Source of the DNA: Tissierellales bacterium
Lineage (GTDB): Bacteria > Bacillota > Clostridia > Tissierellales > JAOAQY01
Direction of reading: 5' to 3'
NCBI GenBank assembly: GCA_025210965.1
Contig: JAOAQY010000181.1
Coordinates: 1 to 64,000 of the forward strand
Length of the DNA stretch: 64,000 nt
The notes under the pieces are model-generated. The model saw nothing but the letters and a program-made list of their open reading frames with translations. It made no database searches and was not told the origin of the DNA. The position numbers were made by a program, and so were the translations under genes. Shown here piece after piece: positions 1 to 17,611 of this stretch (its first letter is position 1; every line of letters begins with the position of its first letter).

Positions 1-157
1 ATCCTAAATATCATACTTCCGAAACCCTACACGCAATATGATAAATATCCCCTTCGTTTTTATACTATCCTAAATATCATACTTCCGAAACCCTACACGC
101 AATATGATAAATATCCCCTTCGTTTTTATACTATCCTAAATATCATACTTCCGAAAC
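1..157 (-). CRISPR. CRISPR array of the dead-Cas9 module (continues past the left edge)
   Basis: Three copies of a 36-bp repeat with a 66-bp period: a partial copy at 1-25 and complete copies at 56-91 and 122-157. The 30-bp spacers are at 26-55 and 92-121 and are identical to each other. Read on the minus strand the repeat begins GTTTCGGAAGTATGATATTT and ends GTATAAAAAC, the type II orientation in which the 5' half of the repeat pairs with tracrRNA. It matches the anti-repeat at 4575-4607, so the array belongs to the cas9 at 598-4524. The window starts inside a repeat, so the full array length is unknown. Confidence 0.95.
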
Positions 158-335: not shown

Positions 336-475
336 ATTTGATGCCATCCTAAATCACCATACTTCCAAAACTTCCTCATTCTATAATACATATCATAATC
401 GCCTTTGATACTAATTAAAAATAGTAATAAGTTGGACTCTTTATTCCTATACTATAATATGATGCTTCTAAAATA
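336..475 (-). CRISPR. Decayed CRISPR repeats between array 1 and dcas9
   Basis: A repeat-like sequence at 336-371 keeps ATCCTAAAT and CATACTTCC with small changes. A weaker copy follows at about 404-438, and another at 441-475 (TATACTATAATATGATGCTT). The spacing is roughly that of the array (66-69 bp). They look like old, leader-distal repeats. Whether they are expressed cannot be told. The rest of 217-597 shows no gene. Confidence 0.45.
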
Positions 476-597: not shown

Positions 598-3500
598 TTA
601 GACAACTTTCCACTTTTTTTCATACAATCCTGTTACAGATCTTTCTACAAATATTAACTCTGATAATTTAATACCTATTTTCGTTTGTCTTCCAACATCA
701 CTAGATAGACCTAGTATTTTAAAATTCGCTCTTGTAGAGTTTGCCTGTAAAAGCTTTAAGATTTCCAATATAATTTGACATTTTTCTATAATACTTAAGT
801 CAATAAATACTCCTCTATTTTCTAACAATTTTCCCCTTATCTTATTATAAACAGGATAAAATCTTTCAATTTTCTCCATAAGAACATCAAATAGTATAGT
901 AACTTCGTCGGATGAAATGTTTTTATACATTTTACGTTCAATATTGTATAAAACTCGCTTTTGTCCTTTTGGCAGAACGATTTGTACTGCATTAATAATT
1001 TCTATATCACTTTTTAATAATTGATACATGCCATCTTTCAATATTAACTGATTCAACATTATCTTATCATTCAATATTTTTAAATTCTCTAATCCCTTGT
1101 CTCTAGAAATATACTCTATTTTTTCTTCCATTGTTCGATTCCTTAAAACAACAGGACAATTTGCTAAAGTAGAAATCACTTTATTCTTCCTTTTCCCTTC
1201 AACTGCTAACAAATAACTTTTACTTATTTGACTAAATCCACCATACAACTCTGTATCTAATCCTTTCTTCAACGGCATTAAATTACCCGAAGATTTAGCA
1301 GAAGGATTTTGGTTATAGAATCCCCCTACTTTTTCTTCTTTCTTATATGAAATGAAGCAGTCATAATAATCTAGACTCTTACTCATTTTTTCTATGATTT
1401 TTTTAGAATTCCATACTAATTCCAGATTATGATTTTTTATATCTTTTCCAAACTCTTCAATTATGAATCCATATTCTGCCCCCGATTCTCTAAAATTAAA
1501 GTTGTCATAGACATCAAAATAAAAACGTTCTCTAAATGTAGGGAATCTTTTCATTAAGAAAGTTCCTAAAAGGCCAGTTAAATATGAATCATGGGCATAA
1601 TGAAAATCATTCAGATTTTGCACCTTAAATAGTTCGTATTTTCTTCTTAGTCTTTCTACTAAAGTAGCTTTTACAGTAACTACATCTGTATCTATATAAC
1701 AATTTCTAAACAAATTAGCAACATGCTTAGTTATTTGTCTAGTTTCTACCAACTCCTTATTCATCAAATTTTCTATGTGTTCTTTTGAAAATTTATATGC
1801 TGTTAAATTCTTATACTTCTTGAAACTAATTAGCTTTACTCTTAACATTTTATCCCACAGAGGCTTCATGTTATTTCTGATATCCTCTTTTATTATTATT
1901 CCGTTGGGCCCCCTATGATTACCTGCGTACTTGACCAAAACCTTATTTGATATACTATTATCTTCAATTATCGACTTAGGAATTATATAACTTATTCTAT
2001 ACTTAGATAAATCTTCTAATACTAAATTTTCACCAGTAAACATACACTTCCCATTTTGCAATAGGTAAAGGTACAACTTATTATCATCTATGTTTCCTTT
2101 ATCTTTCTTTGTCTTATCTATTACCTCTTGGATTTGTTCATCTATATTAAGAATCCTAGATTTTTTTATTTCTTCATATAAGTTATCTACTCTATTTATT
2201 CTTGGAATAGTTCTACGTTTAGGACCTTCCTCTTTATTCACCTTAATAAATATATTTCTTGGTTGATTTTTCATGATTGAAATAATTTCTTCAACCATTC
2301 TTACAGATTGCCAAATTCCTCTCTTGATTGATGGTGAACCATGAAGAGATTCGATATCTTCAATAGTTATTTTTTCAATTACTCTAGAATTTTTCTCTTC
2401 AATAATTTTATTAAATCCTAAATTTTCATCAGATATTATCTGCATGAAATTCATGTTTGAAATTTTCAATATATCTAAAATCGTTCCATTTTCAAATTTT
2501 TTATTAGTTGTAGTAACTCCATCAATTAATTTTTCAGATAAGCTCCCCCAACCTTTAAAATCTCTTTTTAAAATTTTCTTAAGAACTTCATTACTGATTA
2601 ATTCAGAGTTGTAAGTATCTCTAATCTTCTTTTTAAGGATTTTTTTATCAGTGAATAATGTAACCCATCTGATAATATTTTCTACAGTTTCTCTATCCTT
2701 ACCATCTACATCAAAGCCTAAACTTTCAAAAAAGATATGAGATTTCAAATTATTTGCTAACCTTTTTTCTCCCTGCATTCCTTGAATCAAAGGATTATCA
2801 CTTTTTTCAATTACACCTTTATTCTTTAAAAATTTCACAATCATTTTTTCTGTTACATTTTTTTCTTTTCTAAGTAAATCACATAACATCATTAACTTAA
2901 CCTGTGTACTTAGTAATTTCCCATCAATTCTAACTTTATTCAATTCATTCAAAACTTTATATTCCGAATACAACAAAGAGTTATTAGGAAGAACATCACA
3001 ATCAGGAAAATAGCTACACTGATTTGTCATCTTTAATATGAAATTTTCCGCTGACTTCTCCAAATCTACCACTTCTTCGAAGTTCCATGGATAGATCTTA
3101 TCTTTTGACTTTCTTTCCATCCAAGCAAATATTCTCTTGTTATCATTGTTTCTATTAAGTGGCCCCACATAATACGGTATTCTAAACTTCAATATACTAA
3201 TAATTTTATCTTTATTCATTTTTAGTATTGGATAATACTGTCCCTGATTATCTATTATAGATTCTAACTCTGCTAAGTTTAATTGATACGGTACTTGAGC
3301 ATTTTCTGTTGAATTAAGCTTAAGTAAAAACTTCTCATTACCAATTTTATTCAATATCTCTTCTACTTCTGGTTCCTTAATATCAGCTATATCCTTTTTT
3401 ATTGCCTTATACAACTCTTCCCTAGTACATTTACTAATATTATTTATATAAACGTTATAATTTTTAACATTTTTATATCCATTACCATTATCATGCCTAA

Positions 3501-4524
3501 ACATACTGCTGTATCTATGTGGAATAAACTCCTTATATATTTTCTTAAGTTTTACTAAATCATCAGAGTGTTCATTATATTTTTCAATCATAGCTCTTGA
3601 AATAGTATTCTCTTCATCCGAACTATTAGAATTTTTTAATAAATCACTAATGATCAAATATCCATATATCTTCTTAAGTGATTCAAATATATAGAAATCC
3701 TCTTCCAATTTTGACTCTAATAATTCTACTGCTTCATTGTAACCATCATCACCCTCCTCAGAAAATGAGATACTTACTTTATCATTAACATCCTCTATAT
3801 CAAAAATTTTTACAATATCAGCTTTATACCCTAACATCAACCTTATCAAGTTGTTAATTTGTTGGTTCTTCTCTTCAGTAAATAGATTTTTTAACTCTTT
3901 TTCTTTATCTTTTTTACTTAGCTTTTCATTTGTTAAGATGTTTTCAAAATCTTTATATTCTACTTTCTCTATCTTAAAATAACTCACCATATCAAGAAAC
4001 ATATCTTCAATACCACTCGTCACATTAAAACTCTGACCTTCATAAAGGAAATTTCCCCTATATTTTATAATATGATGTATTGCTAAATAAATTAACCTAA
4101 TGTCAATTTTATTATCAGAATTTATTAAATCCTCTCTTAAATGATATATTGTAGGATACTTATCAAAAAAATCTTTGTCTTTAAAATCTTGATCAATGAA
4201 AAGACCGTTAGATACATTTATAGACTTGTCCTTTTTATGCAGAAACGATTCTTTCATGCGTATAAAAAATGAATCATCATTTTTTAATACTTCCTCACTA
4301 AGAAGTTCCTGGAGCAAAAGTATTCTATTTCTTCTTCTAACATATCTTCTTCTAGCAGTTCTAAATAATCTAGTTTGTTCTGCCGTTTCTCCTTTTTGGA
4401 ATAAATTTACCCCCCACATATTCTTACCTTTAAACCTAATAAGTTCTGTATCATTAGTAACTGCATAACCCACAGAATTAACACCTATATTCAAAGAAAT
4501 ATCGTACTCTTCATAATTTTTCAT
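598..4524 (-). CDS. cas9: Catalytically inactive Cas9 (natural dCas9)
   Basis: 1308-residue type II CRISPR effector, full length for the family, with intact Arg-rich bridge helix (residues about 51-67), recognition lobe and C-terminal region. The nuclease residues are gone. The RuvC-I Asp is Asn12 (SLNIGVNSVG, where the sister protein has SLDIGTGSVG). The RuvC-II Glu is Lys761 (IFIKVNKEE). The HNH Asp-His pair is Ser845-Tyr846 (RISYIIP instead of EVDHIVP). The second RuvC-III His is Tyr976 (FHYAHD instead of FHHSHD). Asn869 and Asp979 remain. By SpCas9 knowledge the Asp10 and His840 equivalents alone would abolish both cuts. The frame is uninterrupted and a good ribosome site (GGAAGGAGC) precedes the ATG, which argues against a pseudogene. 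It is likely an RNA-guided DNA binder or repressor. No cas1, cas2 or csn2 is adjacent. Confidence 0.93.
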   Translation of the reverse strand: MKNYEEYDISLNIGVNSVGYAVTNDTELIRFKGKNMWGVNLFQKGETAEQTRLFRTARRRYVRRRNRILLLQELLSEEVLKNDDSFFIRMKESFLHKKDKSINVSNGLFIDQDFKDKDFFDKYPTIYHLREDLINSDNKIDIRLIYLAIHHIIKYRGNFLYEGQSFNVTSGIEDMFLDMVSYFKIEKVEYKDFENILTNEKLSKKDKEKELKNLFTEEKNQQINNLIRLMLGYKADIVKIFDIEDVNDKVSISFSEEGDDGYNEAVELLESKLEEDFYIFESLKKIYGYLIISDLLKNSNSSDEENTISRAMIEKYNEHSDDLVKLKKIYKEFIPHRYSSMFRHDNGNGYKNVKNYNVYINNISKCTREELYKAIKKDIADIKEPEVEEILNKIGNEKFLLKLNSTENAQVPYQLNLAELESIIDNQGQYYPILKMNKDKIISILKFRIPYYVGPLNRNNDNKRIFAWMERKSKDKIYPWNFEEVVDLEKSAENFILKMTNQCSYFPDCDVLPNNSLLYSEYKVLNELNKVRIDGKLLSTQVKLMMLCDLLRKEKNVTEKMIVKFLKNKGVIEKSDNPLIQGMQGEKRLANNLKSHIFFESLGFDVDGKDRETVENIIRWVTLFTDKKILKKKIRDTYNSELISNEVLKKILKRDFKGWGSLSEKLIDGVTTTNKKFENGTILDILKISNMNFMQIISDENLGFNKIIEEKNSRVIEKITIEDIESLHGSPSIKRGIWQSVRMVEEIISIMKNQPRNIFIKVNKEEGPKRRTIPRINRVDNLYEEIKKSRILNIDEQIQEVIDKTKKDKGNIDDNKLYLYLLQNGKCMFTGENLVLEDLSKYRISYIIPKSIIEDNSISNKVLVKYAGNHRGPNGIIIKEDIRNNMKPLWDKMLRVKLISFKKYKNLTAYKFSKEHIENLMNKELVETRQITKHVANLFRNCYIDTDVVTVKATLVERLRRKYELFKVQNLNDFHYAHDSYLTGLLGTFLMKRFPTFRERFYFDVYDNFNFRESGAEYGFIIEEFGKDIKNHNLELVWNSKKIIEKMSKSLDYYDCFISYKKEEKVGGFYNQNPSAKSSGNLMPLKKGLDTELYGGFSQISKSYLLAVEGKRKNKVISTLANCPVVLRNRTMEEKIEYISRDKGLENLKILNDKIMLNQLILKDGMYQLLKSDIEIINAVQIVLPKGQKRVLYNIERKMYKNISSDEVTILFDVLMEKIERFYPVYNKIRGKLLENRGVFIDLSIIEKCQIILEILKLLQANSTRANFKILGLSSDVGRQTKIGIKLSELIFVERSVTGLYEKKWKVV

Positions 4525-4565: not shown

Positions 4566-4687
4566 AGAATCTTTTGATTCTATCCTAAGTTATCATACGA
4601 GTCGAAATGAAGTATTTTACTTAAATGTCCTAGGACCATCCCGTAGGGGATGATTAAAGAGTTGCAAATTTGCATCTCTTTTTTTCT
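4566..4687 (+). ncRNA. tracrRNA of the dead-Cas9 module
   Basis: About 120 nt, divergent from cas9. In order: a small hairpin AGAATC-tttt-GATTCT (4567-4582), an anti-repeat (CTATCCTAAGTTATCATACG, then AGTCGAAAT) complementary to the array-1 repeat with the usual internal bulge, a nexus-type hairpin ATCCC-gta-GGGGAT (4638-4652), and a terminator with stem AGAG-t-TGCAAATTTGCA-t-CTCT followed by T7 (4658-4687). The CGAAAT segment pairs with the GTTTCG start of repeat 1 and would pair poorly with GTTTTA of repeat 2, so the RNA appears dedicated to its own array. Confidence 0.88.
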
Positions 4688-4805: not shown

Positions 4806-4841
4806 TTATATAACTCTATTCCAAATCCTTCACTCTAAAAC
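4806..4841 (-). CRISPR. Isolated degenerate repeat of module 2
   Basis: CTCTATTCCAAATCCTTCAC followed by TCTAAAAC resembles the module-2 repeat but has several substitutions. It lies between tracrRNA 1 and array 2b. It is probably a remnant of an older array end. The segment 4688-4805 shows no gene. Confidence 0.5.
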
Positions 4842-4860
4842 CACCGTGAGGACTTTTTCT

Positions 4861-4946
4861 AAATATCATAATCCAAACACTAAATTATTATTTAATGGGA
4901 TTACTTTTAATCTAACGAAGATTATTATTTAGTTTTACTTATTTAA
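4861..4946 (+). repeat. Leader-like element, copy B
   Basis: This 86-bp sequence directly abuts the first repeat of array 2b and is closely similar to 5227-5314. Shared blocks include ACTTTTAATCTAACGA and ATTATTATTTAGTTTTACTT. The adjacent repeats are the best conserved and the far-end repeats the most degraded, the polarity expected of a leader. That conclusion is inferred. Confidence 0.65.
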
Positions 4947-5180
4947 CCATTTAGTCCTATTCCATTTTCCATAACTCTAAAACGTCCCGCTAGTTCTTCA
5001 TTTGCCTTTTGATCATTTGGTCCTATTCCATTTTCCATAACTCTAAAACTTGACTTCAAGTGTTAAAATAAATATGCGTCATTTGCTCCTATTCCAAACT
5101 CTATAACTCTAAAACCGATAACTCAACCCACTACATGAAGCTTAATATTTACTCCTATTCCGAAATCAATAAATCTAAAA
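4947..5180 (-). CRISPR. CRISPR array 2b of the active-Cas9 module
   Basis: Four 36-bp repeats at 4947-4982, 5013-5048, 5079-5114 and 5145-5180 flank three different 30-bp spacers. On the minus strand the first copy begins GTTTTAGAGTTATGGAAAAT. Copies diverge progressively to the right, and the last one has lost the GTTATGG core. This is the normal gradient away from a leader and puts the leader on the left, although the tracrRNA-pairing end of the repeat reads on the minus strand. Confidence 0.92.
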
Positions 5181-5226
5181 CTAGTGTTATGATATAAGTG
5201 CCAATACAAAATATTCATTTATAACT

Positions 5227-5314: not shown

Positions 5315-5548
5315 CATTTAATCCTATTCCGAATTCCATAACTCTAAAACACATACTTTGTATCTGCCTTTTCAATATTTCATTTAATCCTATTCCGAAT
5401 TCCATAACTCTAAAACACCATATGAATATATTTCATATGCTATTTCCATTTAATCCTATTCCGAATTCCATAACTCTAAAACACATAATACAACAAATAT
5501 CGCAATAAATCACGTTTGCTTCTATTCCAAGTTTAATTACTCTAATAA
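5315..5548 (-). CRISPR. CRISPR array 2a of the active-Cas9 module
   Basis: Three identical 36-bp repeats (5315-5350, 5381-5416, 5447-5482; minus strand GTTTTAGAGTTATGGAATTC then GGAATAGGATTAAATG) and a strongly degenerate fourth at 5513-5548. The three 30-bp spacers differ from each other. The repeat pairs with the anti-repeat of tracrRNA 2 (9649-9682). All spacers are 30 bp, as in array 1. Confidence 0.94.
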
Positions 5549-5568
5549 AATTTAGAGTAATTAAACTT
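5529..5568. repeat. 17-bp perfect inverted repeat overlapping the terminal repeat
   Basis: AAGTTTAATTACTCTAA (5529-5545) is followed after 6 bp by its exact complement (5552-5568). The left arm is part of the degenerate terminal CRISPR repeat. No T-run follows on either strand, so it is not an obvious intrinsic terminator. It lies just downstream of the active cas9 stop codon and could fold in the cas9 3' untranslated RNA. Confidence 0.7.
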
Positions 5569-5625
5569 AAATGATTATCCTTCTTATAAACAATCATAAC
5601 ATATTTTCTACAATATATACATTAA

Positions 5626-8600
5626 TTACTTTTCATATACAATTTTATACTTACCCTCTGCATTTTTTACAACGCTCCATCTTTCCTCATACATACCTGT
5701 TACTGAAGTCTCTATAAATATTAGATCTTCAACTTTAACTTTTTTATTCAGTCTCCCTGAACGTTCTTGTAAGCCAATTTTTTTTAGATTTCCTTGTCCT
5801 GAATTAGCTTTTAGCATTTTTAGAAGTTCTAAAATTATATAACTCTTTTCTGAAATAGATAATTCTAAAAATACTTTTCTTTTTCCTAACAATTTTTTAT
5901 GAATATTCTTATATACCGGGTAGAATTGTACAATTTTCTTTAAAATAATATCATACAATGCTTCAAGTTCATGAGCTTGGAGACTGCTATAATTCTCTCT
6001 TTCAATTAAATGTACTATTCTCTTGTATTCTTTATTTAAAAGCAAATTAACTGCATTAGATAATTCTTTATCACTCTTTAGAATCAGTGGCATACCTTCA
6101 CTAATTACTAATTGATTAATCAATATCTTATCTTTGATGATCTCTATATCATCACAATCATTCATTATTTTCAGATATTCGATTTTATCATCAACAGATT
6201 TATTTCTCAAAAATATCGGACACCCGATAAGACACAGATTCTCTTTTCCCTTTTTAACAACTTTAACCACCATAAGATAACTTTTATTTACATTACCATA
6301 TCCACCATATAGTTTTGGATCCAATCCTTTTTTCAAAGGCATTAAATTACCATTCCCCCTTTTAAGAGCATTTTGATTGTAAAATTCTCCTGTGTTCTCT
6401 TCTTTTTTATACGATATATAACAATCATTATAATTTATATATTTCTTCATTTTAATAATAATTGAATCTGGATCCCATACTAAATCTGAATTATGATTAA
6501 ATATAGGTTTTTCGAACTCACTAATTATAAATCCGTACTTTTGTCTATAATCCTTAAAATTATACTTAGACAACATATCATAATAAAATCTATCTTTAAA
6601 AGCAGGAAATCGCATTTTAATAAAGTTCCCTAAAAGGCCTGTTAAATATGCATCATGTGAATGGTGAAAATCATTCAAACTTCTCGACTTAAATAAATCA
6701 TGCTTGTTTCTTAAATTGCTAACAATATTACCTTTCACCATAACTATATCTGTATCAACATAATAGTTTCTAAATAGATTAGCTATATGCCTTGTAATTT
6801 GCCTAGTCTCAACAAGTTGTCTATTAATAAATCCTTCAACTTGATTTTTAGTAAACTCATTTCTATTCAAGTTCCAGTGTTTCTTCTGGCTCATTAGTCC
6901 ACACGCTAGTAGTTTTTCCCAAATACAACTCATTTTATGTCTTACAGTACTTTTAAGTACCAGTGAATCTGATTTGTTCTGGTTCTCTCTTGATGTAACT
7001 AGTACTTTATTGTCTATACTGTCATCTTTAATAATAGTTCTAGGAACGATATGATCTACTTCATATTGTGATAAACTTTTATAATCTAAGTCAACTCCAG
7101 AATACATGCATTTACCATTCTGCAACAAAAACAAATACAATCTTTCATTATCTATCTTTTCATTTTTTTCTTTCTTAATATAGTCCATAGCCTCTTTTAC
7201 ATTCTCAGTTACGATGAAACTACCCGACTTACTAACAGCTTCATATATTTCTTCAATTTTCTTAAATCTTGTATCTTTTCTTTTCTTATTTTCCTCAGAG
7301 CGAGCTACTTCTATGAATATATTTCTAGGAGGTTTTTTCATAATACCAACAATCTCTTCAGTAATTTTTACTGATTGCCATATTGCTCTTTTTATTGCAG
7401 GTGAACCTTGAAGCTCTTGAATATCTTTAGAAGTAATTTTATCTTTAATATTCGTATTTCTCTCTTCGATAATATCTTTAAATCCTAATTCATCATCAGA
7501 TATAATTTGAATGAAATTCAAGTTAGTATGTTTCAATATATCAAGAATGGTACTTTCCCTATATTTTCTACTAGTAGAACCTACTTCATTAATAAGTTCA
7601 TTTGACAATCTCCCCCAACCACTGAAATTACATTTTAAAACCTTTTTCAACACATCATCGCTAATCATATCTTTACTGCAGTTATTTCTTATTTCCTTTT
7701 TTAGAATTTTCTTATCAGAAAAAAGAGTAATCCATCTGATCAGATTTTCAACTAACTCTCTATCCTCTTCATCAACATCAAACCCTAATCTTTCAAAGAA
7801 AATATGAGCCTTTAAACTATTTGAAAACTTATCTTCTTCATGAAATCCTTTAATAATCGGTGAACTACTTCTATCAATGACTTCATTATTTTTTAAAAAT
7901 TTCTCTAATGTCTTCACTGTGATATTTTTTTCTTTTCTAAATAAGTCATTATATATTAAATGTTTCACTTGTTTATTTATAAGCTTTCCATCAATTCTTA
8001 TTTTATTTAACTCATTTAAAACCTTAAACTCAGAGTAAATAAGCGAATTATCAGGTAATACGTCACAATTAGGAAAGTATGTACACTGATTTGTCATCTT
8101 TAGAATAAAGTTAGTTGCTGATTTTTCTAGATCAACCACTTCCTCAAAATTCCATGGGTAGATTTTATCCTGAGCCTTTCTTTCCATCCAGGAAAACACT
8201 TTATTATTATCCCTATTAGCATTTAGTGGGCCTACATAATACGGAATCCTAAATTTGAAAAGACTTATTATCTTATCTCTATTCTCCAATAAGTTTGGGT
8301 AATATTTACTTTGCTTATCTATTATTGATTCTAGTTCAGATAAGTTCAATTGATAGGGAATTTGAGCATTATCCACTGTATTTAATTTCTGAAGAAATTC
8401 CTCATTATCAATTTTGGTAATTACATCATCAACCAAAGTATCATTAATATCAGAAATATCTTTTTTAATAGCCTTATATAACTCATCCTTAGAACACTTT
8501 GAAATATTATTTATATAAACATTGTAATTTTTTACGTTCTTATACTTATCTCCATTATAGTGCCTAAACATTTTATTATAATGATAATCACTAAAGTGTT

Positions 8601-9600
8601 TTCGGTAGATAACTTTCAAATTCTTCAAATCTTCTGCATGAATGTTAAACTTATTTATCATCGCCTTTGAAATTGAACACTCATCACTATTAGTATTACT
8701 ATCATTCTTCATTAATTTTCTAATAATATAGAAACTATAAATCTTTTTCAGAGCTTCAAATAATAAGCCATCTTCATCAGATTTATTTTGAATCAACTCA
8801 ACTGCTTCATTATAGTTTTCATCACCTTCATTAGAAAAGGACAAATTCAGTTTCCCATCTACATGTTCTATATCGAATATTTTTACCACATTAGCCTTAT
8901 CACCCATTATTATTTTAATTAATTGATTTACCCTTTGGTCTTTTGTTCCTCCTGCTAAAAGATTTTGAAGCCTCTTCACTTTCTCTTTTTTATATAACTC
9001 CCAATCTAAAATTATCCTTTCAAAATCTGTATAGCTGATTTCATTCAGACAAAGATAATTTGCTACTACCTCAAAAGATTCCACTATACCACTTGATATA
9101 TCAAAATTTTGTCTCTCATATAAGAAATTTCCTCTATACTTAACTATGTTGTGGATCGCCAAATATACTAGTCTTATATCAAATTTTCTTTCTGAATTTA
9201 CTAATGCATGTCTAAGATGATAAATCGTTGGATAGTTTTTAAAGTATTTCTTATCATCAAAATCTTTATCTGCAAACAAACCATTTAAAGAGCCTAATGA
9301 CTTATGTTCTTTATGCAGAAATGATTCTTTCATTCGAATAAAAAATCCATCATCTATAGCTAGTATATCTTCATTAAAAAGTTCCTGGAGCAAATTTATT
9401 CTATTTCTTCTCCTATCATACCTTCTTCTAGTACTTCTATGGAGTCTTGTTTTTTCGGCAGTTTCACCACTTCTAAAAATACTTACTCCCCACATATTTT
9501 TACCTTTAAATTTAAGCAGGTCAGTTCCGCTTGTAACAGCATATCCTACTGAACCAGTCCCAATGTCCAAAGAAATGTCATATTCGTCAATTTTTTTCAT
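5626..9600 (-). CDS. cas9: Cas9 endonuclease, catalytically intact
   Basis: 1324-residue RNA-guided DNA endonuclease. All expected catalytic residues are present: RuvC-I Asp12 (SLDIGTGSVG), RuvC-II Glu764 (IFIEVARSE), HNH Asp849-His850 (EVDHIVP) with Asn873, and RuvC-III His979/His980/His982/Asp983 (FHHSHDAYL). The Arg-rich bridge helix is at about 51-67. The protein is closely similar to the product of 598-4524 over its whole length, so the two are sister copies. It is served by arrays 2a/2b and the divergent tracrRNA at 9642-9757. A ribosome site (AAAGGAGCA) precedes the ATG. Subtype is uncertain because no cas1, cas2, csn2 or cas4 lies in the window. The arrays may rely on adaptation proteins elsewhere. 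Confidence 0.95.
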   Translation of the reverse strand: MKKIDEYDISLDIGTGSVGYAVTSGTDLLKFKGKNMWGVSIFRSGETAEKTRLHRSTRRRYDRRRNRINLLQELFNEDILAIDDGFFIRMKESFLHKEHKSLGSLNGLFADKDFDDKKYFKNYPTIYHLRHALVNSERKFDIRLVYLAIHNIVKYRGNFLYERQNFDISSGIVESFEVVANYLCLNEISYTDFERIILDWELYKKEKVKRLQNLLAGGTKDQRVNQLIKIIMGDKANVVKIFDIEHVDGKLNLSFSNEGDENYNEAVELIQNKSDEDGLLFEALKKIYSFYIIRKLMKNDSNTNSDECSISKAMINKFNIHAEDLKNLKVIYRKHFSDYHYNKMFRHYNGDKYKNVKNYNVYINNISKCSKDELYKAIKKDISDINDTLVDDVITKIDNEEFLQKLNTVDNAQIPYQLNLSELESIIDKQSKYYPNLLENRDKIISLFKFRIPYYVGPLNANRDNNKVFSWMERKAQDKIYPWNFEEVVDLEKSATNFILKMTNQCTYFPNCDVLPDNSLIYSEFKVLNELNKIRIDGKLINKQVKHLIYNDLFRKEKNITVKTLEKFLKNNEVIDRSSSPIIKGFHEEDKFSNSLKAHIFFERLGFDVDEEDRELVENLIRWITLFSDKKILKKEIRNNCSKDMISDDVLKKVLKCNFSGWGRLSNELINEVGSTSRKYRESTILDILKHTNLNFIQIISDDELGFKDIIEERNTNIKDKITSKDIQELQGSPAIKRAIWQSVKITEEIVGIMKKPPRNIFIEVARSEENKKRKDTRFKKIEEIYEAVSKSGSFIVTENVKEAMDYIKKEKNEKIDNERLYLFLLQNGKCMYSGVDLDYKSLSQYEVDHIVPRTIIKDDSIDNKVLVTSRENQNKSDSLVLKSTVRHKMSCIWEKLLACGLMSQKKHWNLNRNEFTKNQVEGFINRQLVETRQITRHIANLFRNYYVDTDIVMVKGNIVSNLRNKHDLFKSRSLNDFHHSHDAYLTGLLGNFIKMRFPAFKDRFYYDMLSKYNFKDYRQKYGFIISEFEKPIFNHNSDLVWDPDSIIIKMKKYINYNDCYISYKKEENTGEFYNQNALKRGNGNLMPLKKGLDPKLYGGYGNVNKSYLMVVKVVKKGKENLCLIGCPIFLRNKSVDDKIEYLKIMNDCDDIEIIKDKILINQLVISEGMPLILKSDKELSNAVNLLLNKEYKRIVHLIERENYSSLQAHELEALYDIILKKIVQFYPVYKNIHKKLLGKRKVFLELSISEKSYIILELLKMLKANSGQGNLKKIGLQERSGRLNKKVKVEDLIFIETSVTGMYEERWSVVKNAEGKYKIVYEK

Positions 9601-9641: not shown

Positions 9642-9757
9642 AGAGTTTGATTCTATTCCAAATTCTATAACGAGTTAAAATAAAGTTTTAACTTAAATGT
9701 CTATATGGCTATCCTTTAGAGGATTAGAGAGTTGCTGAAAAGCAACTCTTTTTATTT
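9642..9757 (+). ncRNA. tracrRNA of the active-Cas9 module
   Basis: About 115 nt. The anti-repeat (CTATTCCAAATTCTATAACG then AGTTAAAAT) is complementary to the array-2 repeat. A short hairpin with AAGTTTTAACTT follows, then a nexus-like hairpin around ATCCTTTAGAGGAT (9710-9725), and a terminator GAGTTGC-tgaaaa-GCAACTC plus T5. The layout parallels tracrRNA 1, but the bases facing the start of the repeat have changed with it (TTAAAAT against GTTTTA). Confidence 0.88.
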
Positions 9758-9964: not shown

Positions 9965-10330
9965 TTAAGTATAATCAATATAAACTTTTGACAAACTCGG
10001 TTTACACCACTTTTCCTCTTCTCTACTTGCAACAAATTTTGAAAGACTAGTCATAGCTTTATTTCTCGATACTATGTAACTATCTATTTGTTCTTTGGCA
10101 TCATCAACATCAATATCATCACGAGTTCTCAATATATTTTTCCATATCTGTGCATGCATATGTGATTCAATTGCTACTAAATATAAATCACGACCTATAC
10201 GTAAATCTGTTGCACTAGCAATAAATACATCAGCTGTTATTGTAGCTCCTCCACCACCAGGTATTATTGTTGGTATCTTCTTGAACAATTCATTTATTTT
10301 CTTTAATAAATCAAAGTCCTGTTTATTCAT
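9965..10330 (-). CDS. Hypothetical protein, 121 aa
   Basis: Not recognised. The start is the ATG at 10330, because GGAGGACCAT precedes it. The N-terminus is charged and helical (residues 1-18). A Gly-rich hinge, PTIIPGGGGA, follows at 19-28, and then a mostly helical, soluble segment rich in Arg and Asp. It is the last gene before the structured RNA at 9793-9957, converges with it and shares its terminator region. A separate hairpin terminator lies upstream at 10375-10410, so it has its own transcript. Confidence 0.6.
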   Translation of the reverse strand: MNKQDFDLLKKINELFKKIPTIIPGGGGATITADVFIASATDLRIGRDLYLVAIESHMHAQIWKNILRTRDDIDVDDAKEQIDSYIVSRNKAMTSLSKFVASREEEKWCKPSLSKVYIDYT

Positions 10331-17439: not shown

Positions 17440-17611
17440 AAGTAATTAGCCATATGAAACTACTACTTTTCTGCAGTAAAATTCCTTTCTCTATTAAAAC
17501 ACTATCAGAATGCTTTAATGCCCTATATTCGTTAAAAAACAAATATCCTGACACAAAATACTAAAAGCAAAAACAAAACCACTGTGACTCTTATAATCCC
17601 TTTGCTCATTA
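17440..17611 (-). pseudogene. Possible frameshifted small membrane-protein gene
   Basis: From an ATG near 17611 a membrane segment (GIIRVTVVLFLLLVFCVRIF) reads to a stop in a run of six T. With one base removed there, the frame continues as FFNEYRALKHSDSVLIEKGI and onward to a stop near 17440. Either a broken gene or a homopolymer error in the sequence. No clear ribosome site, so confidence is low. Confidence 0.3.

Follow-up and report, generated by a model that had tools for sequence, protein, structure and literature searches.

Plasmid-borne CRISPR-Cas systems of types IV-A and V-M (Cas12m) do not cleave their targets, often lack adaptation genes, and carry spacers against plasmids (PMC11656645). 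Cas9 itself is also known in a partly inactivated form, phage Cas9c, which has an inactivated RuvC domain and its own tracrRNA (PMC11656645). Active Cas9 proteins can be used for binding and repression, not cutting, with the help of special RNAs. Examples are the scaRNA of F. novicida and the tracr-L of S. pyogenes, the latter matching the cas promoter over 11 nt (PMC8616872). The TldR proteins are nuclease-dead repressors that descend from TnpB and use a dedicated guide RNA (PMC13418256).

Spacer duplication has been surveyed across CRISPR arrays: 3.3% of the spacers were duplication candidates, and potential duplication was seen in 162 of the 333 array groups and none in the other 171 (PMC11472070). 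The favoured cause is misalignment of repeats during replication (PMC8047081).

The window considered here is the whole stretch of 64,000 nucleotides that was analysed, which corresponds to C181:1-64000 of a 160,697-bp contig. It begins inside a CRISPR array, array B, with two identical copies of one spacer, s4. With a probability of roughly 0.7, the two copies belong to a genuine type II-style array, in which they are the units nearest the leader, the array supplies guides to a dead Cas9 encoded on a plasmid, and the duplication came about by slippage or unequal recombination. The interest of the locus lies less in the spacer pair than in a dead Cas9 that has long been kept with private guide RNAs beside a cutting-competent sister.

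Array B and its plasmid

Positions 1-66 and 67-132 of the window are repeat-spacer units that are 100% identical over all 66 nt, and chance identity is excluded. The spacer s4 (CCTACACGCAATATGATAAATATCCCCTTC) is present as the same 30-mer at 26-55 and 92-121, exactly as the original prediction had described it. No further occurrence of the exact 66-nt unit exists on the whole contig C181. The array consists of 36-nt repeats (56-91 and 122-157) and 30-nt spacers, all on the minus strand. Its leader (158-235, delimited by a four-way leader alignment) ends in ..TTTGAG against the first, leader-proximal repeat (122-157). This is followed by the leader-proximal spacer B1 (92-121), the next repeat (56-91, crRNA sense GTTTCGGAAGTATGATATTTAGGATAGTATAAAAAC), the identical spacer B2 (26-55, crRNA sense GAAGGGGATATTTATCATATTGCGTGTAGG), and a partial repeat of the dead-Cas9 type (1-25) that is cut at the start of the contig and has its remainder at C181:160678-160697. 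According to the same alignment, the leader is conserved, with a copy before a second array of dead-type repeats, array A (C181:160026-160250), at C181:160251. The motif TTTGAG is a type II-A leader anchor. With crRNAs read from the minus strand and a leader that starts at 158, the duplicated pair is the one nearest the leader. As the TTTGAG leader abuts the first repeat, new spacers would be expected at the s4 end of array B.

Array B leaves the contig at base 1 and resumes in phase at its other end, where the order is repeat, s4 variant, repeat, B4, repeat, B5, repeat, B6, and a diverged terminal repeat. From the leader, the array therefore reads s4, s4, s4 variant, B4, B5, B6. Following the array leftward, a check proposed with the original prediction, thus leads to a variant of s4 and then to three different spacers. 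The ordinary array of diverse, phage-matching spacers that had been considered as the opposite outcome was found in part: its spacers are diverse, but no match to a known phage was found for any of them. The third s4 copy (C181:160648-160677) is identical at 27 of 30 positions, with 3 mismatches. It may go back to an earlier duplication, may have been acquired from a variant of the same element, or may reflect poor sequence quality at the contig end.

Since array B spans the contig ends, C181 is read as a circular plasmid. The conjugation proteins (a TraG/TrwB-like T4SS coupling protein) and ParA-family proteins encoded on the contig agree with this, and, judged from its sequence, the simplest reading is that C181 is probably a circular conjugative plasmid. 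When C181:159990-160697 is joined to positions 1-600 of the window, three tandem modules, A, B, and E, are seen, with leaders before A and B. Their long self-similarity suggests that whole array modules were segmentally duplicated. Elsewhere in the window, a protein encoded at 15392-16141 matches the PADLOC model for SspD (5.1e-10), possibly reflecting DNA modification or another plasmid function.

The position of the array at the contig ends raises the question of an assembly artefact, in which opening of the circular plasmid within the array led to the doubling or misjoining of a single s4 unit. The first s4 copy begins at contig base 1, and the unit at the contig end resembles the first unit at a level of 88%, with most of the changes towards A. 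However, the second copy (67-132) is wholly internal, with a complete repeat on one side and the leader on the other, and the contig ends share no exact overlap of k-mer size but only 9 nt with 1 mismatch. Moreover, assemblers usually collapse tandem repeats and do not expand them. An artefact is therefore unlikely; the copy number of s4 is nevertheless the one assembled and, with its first copy starting at contig base 1, is not proven.

A catalytically dead Cas9 and its active sister

Two Cas9 proteins are encoded on the minus strand of the window. The first (598-4524, 1308 aa) is catalytically dead, with intact REC and PAM-interacting domains, and the second (5626-9600, 1324 aa) has every catalytic residue intact and is 56% identical to the dead copy. 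The dead Cas9 aligns over its length with Cas9 structures and has the REC, bridge helix, PAM-interacting, RuvC, and HNH domains of the Cas9 architecture. In SpCas9 numbering, its changes are D10N, E762K, D839S, H840Y, and H983Y, with N863 and D986 retained. Catalytic residues are thus lost in both RuvC and HNH, and these five changes bear out the original prediction that the Cas9 next to the array is dead. In the sister and 29 other Cas9 proteins, some of which are truncated so that only readable positions were scored, the catalytic positions are kept wherever they can be read, with the exception of one D839E.

In the tree, the dead and the active Cas9 are sisters, with branches of 0.362 and 0.353, respectively. 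As far as the sequences tell, the dead Cas9 has not evolved at a higher rate than the active copy and the protein is kept under constraint. Stops or a longer branch would be the expected marks of a pseudogene. At otherwise conserved columns, the changes of the dead copy tend to fall in the nuclease domains and not in REC: the dead and the active copy have 10 versus 3 changes in RuvC-III, 7 versus 2 in the HNH region, and 4 versus 7 in REC, numbers for which no single domain test is significant in the larger alignment. In a smaller alignment, RuvC-III has 12 changes in the dead copy and 2 in the active one (p=0.013). The domain pattern is compatible with a protein that is kept for guide and DNA binding, an activity that we infer.

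The only close relative of the dead Cas9 found in the collections searched is its sister on the same plasmid. No relatives were found in IMG/VR, identity did not exceed 38% among genome-collection contigs or 36% in plasmids and phages, and the best value in 391 genomes of the class was 39%. A search for cas1, whose control was positive in 9 of 14 genomes, gave no hit in the 95.8%-complete host genome. The closest outgroup Cas9 (39%), at locus L063 (G619:C32), adjoins ORFs of 289 and 106 aa, which by size are candidates for cas1 and cas2. The plasmid lineage appears to be without cas1 and cas2.

Two orthogonal sets of guides

Both Cas9 proteins are accompanied by a predicted tracrRNA on the plus strand. 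The tracrRNA 1 of the dead Cas9 (4580-4687) is composed of an anti-repeat (4580-4608), a nexus, and a terminator hairpin, and the tracrRNA 2 of the active Cas9 lies at 9653-9752. The active Cas9 has two arrays on the minus strand, array C (4957-5211, repeat GTTTTAGAGTTATGGAAAATGGAATAG..) and array D (5324-5512, repeat GTTTTAGAGTTATGGAATTCGGAATAG..). The dead-type repeats, which on the minus strand read GTTTCGGAAGTATG..., are found in array B, in array A with its own leader, and in a lone unit, E, whose repeat (345-371, minus strand) pairs over its full length with the anti-repeat of tracrRNA 1.

Predicted pairing energies separate the two sets. Anti-repeat 1 pairs with the repeats of array B at -26.9 kcal/mol, of array A at -28.6 kcal/mol, and of unit E at -28.7 kcal/mol, and only poorly with the active-type repeats of D (-6.7 kcal/mol) and C (-5.7 kcal/mol). 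Conversely, anti-repeat 2 pairs with D at -22.2 kcal/mol and C at -20.7 kcal/mol, and poorly with the dead-type repeats of B (-8.8 kcal/mol), A (-8.2 kcal/mol), and E (-10.9 kcal/mol). Because repeat/anti-repeat pairing is orthogonal, the dead Cas9 is not simply borrowing the guides of the active system. The predicted pairing of the array B repeat with tracrRNA 1 also agrees with the original assignment of this array to the dead Cas9.

Two further elements lie among these genes. Unit F (4815-4880, minus strand) is a hybrid relic composed of a leader, a dead-like repeat, an 11-nt gap, and an active-type repeat, possibly a recombinant between dead-type and active-type arrays. Between array D and the 3' end of the active cas9 gene, at 5522-5570, there is a perfect inverted repeat (AAGTTTAATTACTCTAA / TTAGAGTAATTAAACTT) that is partly active-type repeat sequence.

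A dead Cas9 could also be an anti-CRISPR decoy that sequesters the crRNAs of a host or rival Cas9 in the manner of phage Cas9c, and a phage Cas9 with a dead RuvC and its own tracrRNA has indeed been described (PMC11656645). This role is improbable here: the dead Cas9 has multi-spacer arrays of its own (A and B, plus unit E), which are orthogonal to those of its sister, and the host genome harbours no Cas9 besides these two and no detected Cas1. A dead Cas9 guided by its own arrays remains the preferred reading.

Search for targets

The searches proposed with the original prediction did not reveal a target of s4. None was found in its own genome outside the array at up to 3 mismatches, in phage records, or in plasmid records, and 395 related genomes gave no significant match. 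On plasmid C181, a whole-plasmid best-match and seed scan found none outside array B, which extends to the entire plasmid the earlier impression that s4 has no match elsewhere in the window. IMG/VR contains neither the exact 30-mer nor the exact 20-nt PAM-proximal stretch, and the host genome has no site with the exact 12-nt seed followed by NGG. The s4 guide might act against a competitor plasmid, a phage, or the host.

The other spacers of the dead Cas9 likewise gave no matches in plasmid and phage records, and exact 20-nt searches with E1, A2, C4, and A1 found none in IMG/VR. Seed matches of B4 (16 nt, PAM GTA), D1, and B5 were inspected and rejected as chance-level. Translated s4 resembles a plasmid ORF at 53483 (RNMINI-F), a match equalled by 8 of 60 shuffles, and a 12-nt seed match of D2 at 10306 has no NGG and is one of two such 12-mers among 16 guides.

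Two spacers of the active arrays, C1 (5182-5211) and D3 (5351-5380), imperfectly match adjacent stretches of a plasmid gene (C181:137335-137375) for a 503-aa protein related to phrog_11092. The C1 match is backed at the protein level, where 0 of 60 shuffles equalled it, whereas the D3 match is not. At the sequence level, the two matches suggest that C1 and D3 were acquired from a related plasmid.

Origin of the duplication

An exact 66-bp tandem unit, bounded by repeats and lying beside its copy, fits a spacer duplicated by slippage. The duplication would have occurred via replication slippage or unequal recombination between adjacent 36-nt repeats. A second independent acquisition of s4 is unlikely at present, because the genome, 95.8% complete, yielded no Cas1. 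Slippage or recombination is the simplest and most likely origin, and the duplication is probably ordinary and in need of no special explanation. The original suggestion that adjacent duplicates can arise by recombination is thus favoured by the exact, repeat-bounded unit and the lack of a detected Cas1, although the mechanism itself is one that we infer.

The original prediction had also proposed selection for the dosage of one guide against a fixed target. On this view, two s4 units would raise the amount of a single crRNA, since a Cas9 that only binds has to saturate its target. The s4 pair does adjoin the leader, next to which transcription is usually highest, and the third, diverged copy implies that s4 was either amplified repeatedly or acquired on two occasions. 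Nevertheless, this proposal is unsupported and highly improbable, as no target or host seed site emerged from the searches described above, the array is diverse, and spacer duplication is common without such selection (PMC11472070). Under an origin by slippage or unequal recombination, the second s4 unit would provide at most one extra template for the same crRNA, and selection for dosage would not be needed.

The lone guide E1 and the possible function of the dead Cas9

By analogy with types IV-A and V-M, the complex of dead Cas9 and guide would bind target DNA without cutting and thereby repress or block the target. It may act mainly against competing mobile elements.

The lone spacer of unit E, E1 (CGATTATGATATGTATTATAGAATGAGGAA, 372-401, minus strand), adjoins a single tracrRNA-1-compatible repeat and matches the host contig C43 at 17561-17590 (L042:9561-9590). 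The match covers 27 of 30 bases, with 23 contiguous PAM-proximal bases and an adjacent AGG; the chance expectation for 23-nt seeds like this one is 1.4e-6. The site lies at about nt 66-95 of an orphan ORF (C43:16798-17655), on its sense strand. The ORF is flanked by PDC-M14A/B on one side and by a region with DarT and PDC-M46A/B on the other. As these are known or candidate defence systems, the E1 site is in a defence island.

The dead Cas9 might therefore be used for native CRISPRi of the host, directed by E1 to C43:16798-17655 and silencing a gene of the defence island. The match and its defence neighbourhood, the predicted full pairing of the E repeat with tracrRNA 1, and the precedent of a type IV-A system on a plasmid with a spacer that targets the host gene pilN (PMC11656645) speak for it. 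On the other hand, the protospacer is on the sense strand, and targeting of this strand inside a coding sequence gives poor or absent CRISPRi (PMC10256743). It is also a single case with an orphan target gene, and unit E looks similar to an eroded array at its trailer end, so that E1 may be a leftover spacer that once served against a mobile island and is tolerated. Silencing of this gene is thus improbable. From its sequence match, E1 may be a self-target tolerated by a non-cutting Cas9, a remnant of earlier defence directed at a mobile island, or a guide with a regulatory role. A native CRISPRi plasmid in the full sense, which keeps a dead Cas9, private tracrRNA and arrays, and a cutting sister, represses host or rival genes including the E1 target, and gains dose from the doubling of s4, is very doubtful.

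Comparison with known systems

As a spacer duplication, the s4 pair resembles those attributed to misalignment during replication (PMC11472070, PMC8047081), with an identical, adjacent spacer-repeat unit in one array, and nothing about it is distinctive. The system around it shares with type II CRISPR-Cas (SpCas9-like, with a II-A-like leader) the Cas9 architecture, 36-nt repeats, 30-nt spacers, a tracrRNA anti-repeat, and the TTTGAG leader, but differs in its dead nuclease and in the lack of a detected cas1 in the genome.

Like phage Cas9c (PMC11656645), the dead Cas9 is encoded by a mobile element, has lost catalytic residues, and has its own tracrRNA. Unlike Cas9c, it is dead in both RuvC and HNH, has its own arrays, and lies adjacent to an active sister with orthogonal guides. 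With the scaRNA and tracr-L systems it shares the presumed use of Cas9 for binding or repression in place of cutting, but those systems combine an active Cas9 with special RNAs, whereas here the protein is dead and the guides come from arrays (PMC8616872). TldR is a parallel case of independent nuclease loss on a mobile element, in which the ability to bind guide RNA and DNA apparently persists, yet it derives from TnpB, works with a dedicated guide RNA, and is not a Cas9 with CRISPR arrays (PMC13418256). In literature whose coverage is incomplete, no published natural Cas9 was found with both nuclease centres dead, its own arrays, and an active sister beside it. A plasmid-borne Cas9 that would only bind is likely a new form of a known kind of system. 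If it binds and represses, the reason for which one plasmid maintains a non-cutting Cas9 next to a cutting one would become directly testable.

The closest parallel in lifestyle is offered by types IV-A and V-M (PMC11656645), which are likewise plasmid-borne and nuclease-less, as is the presumed repressor described here, with no cas1 detected. The effector is a Cas9 with a tracrRNA and not Csf/DinG or Cas12m, so the system would work similarly to these types without being a member of either. If the dead Cas9 binds and represses, it would represent within type II what types IV-A and V-M are among plasmid-borne systems.
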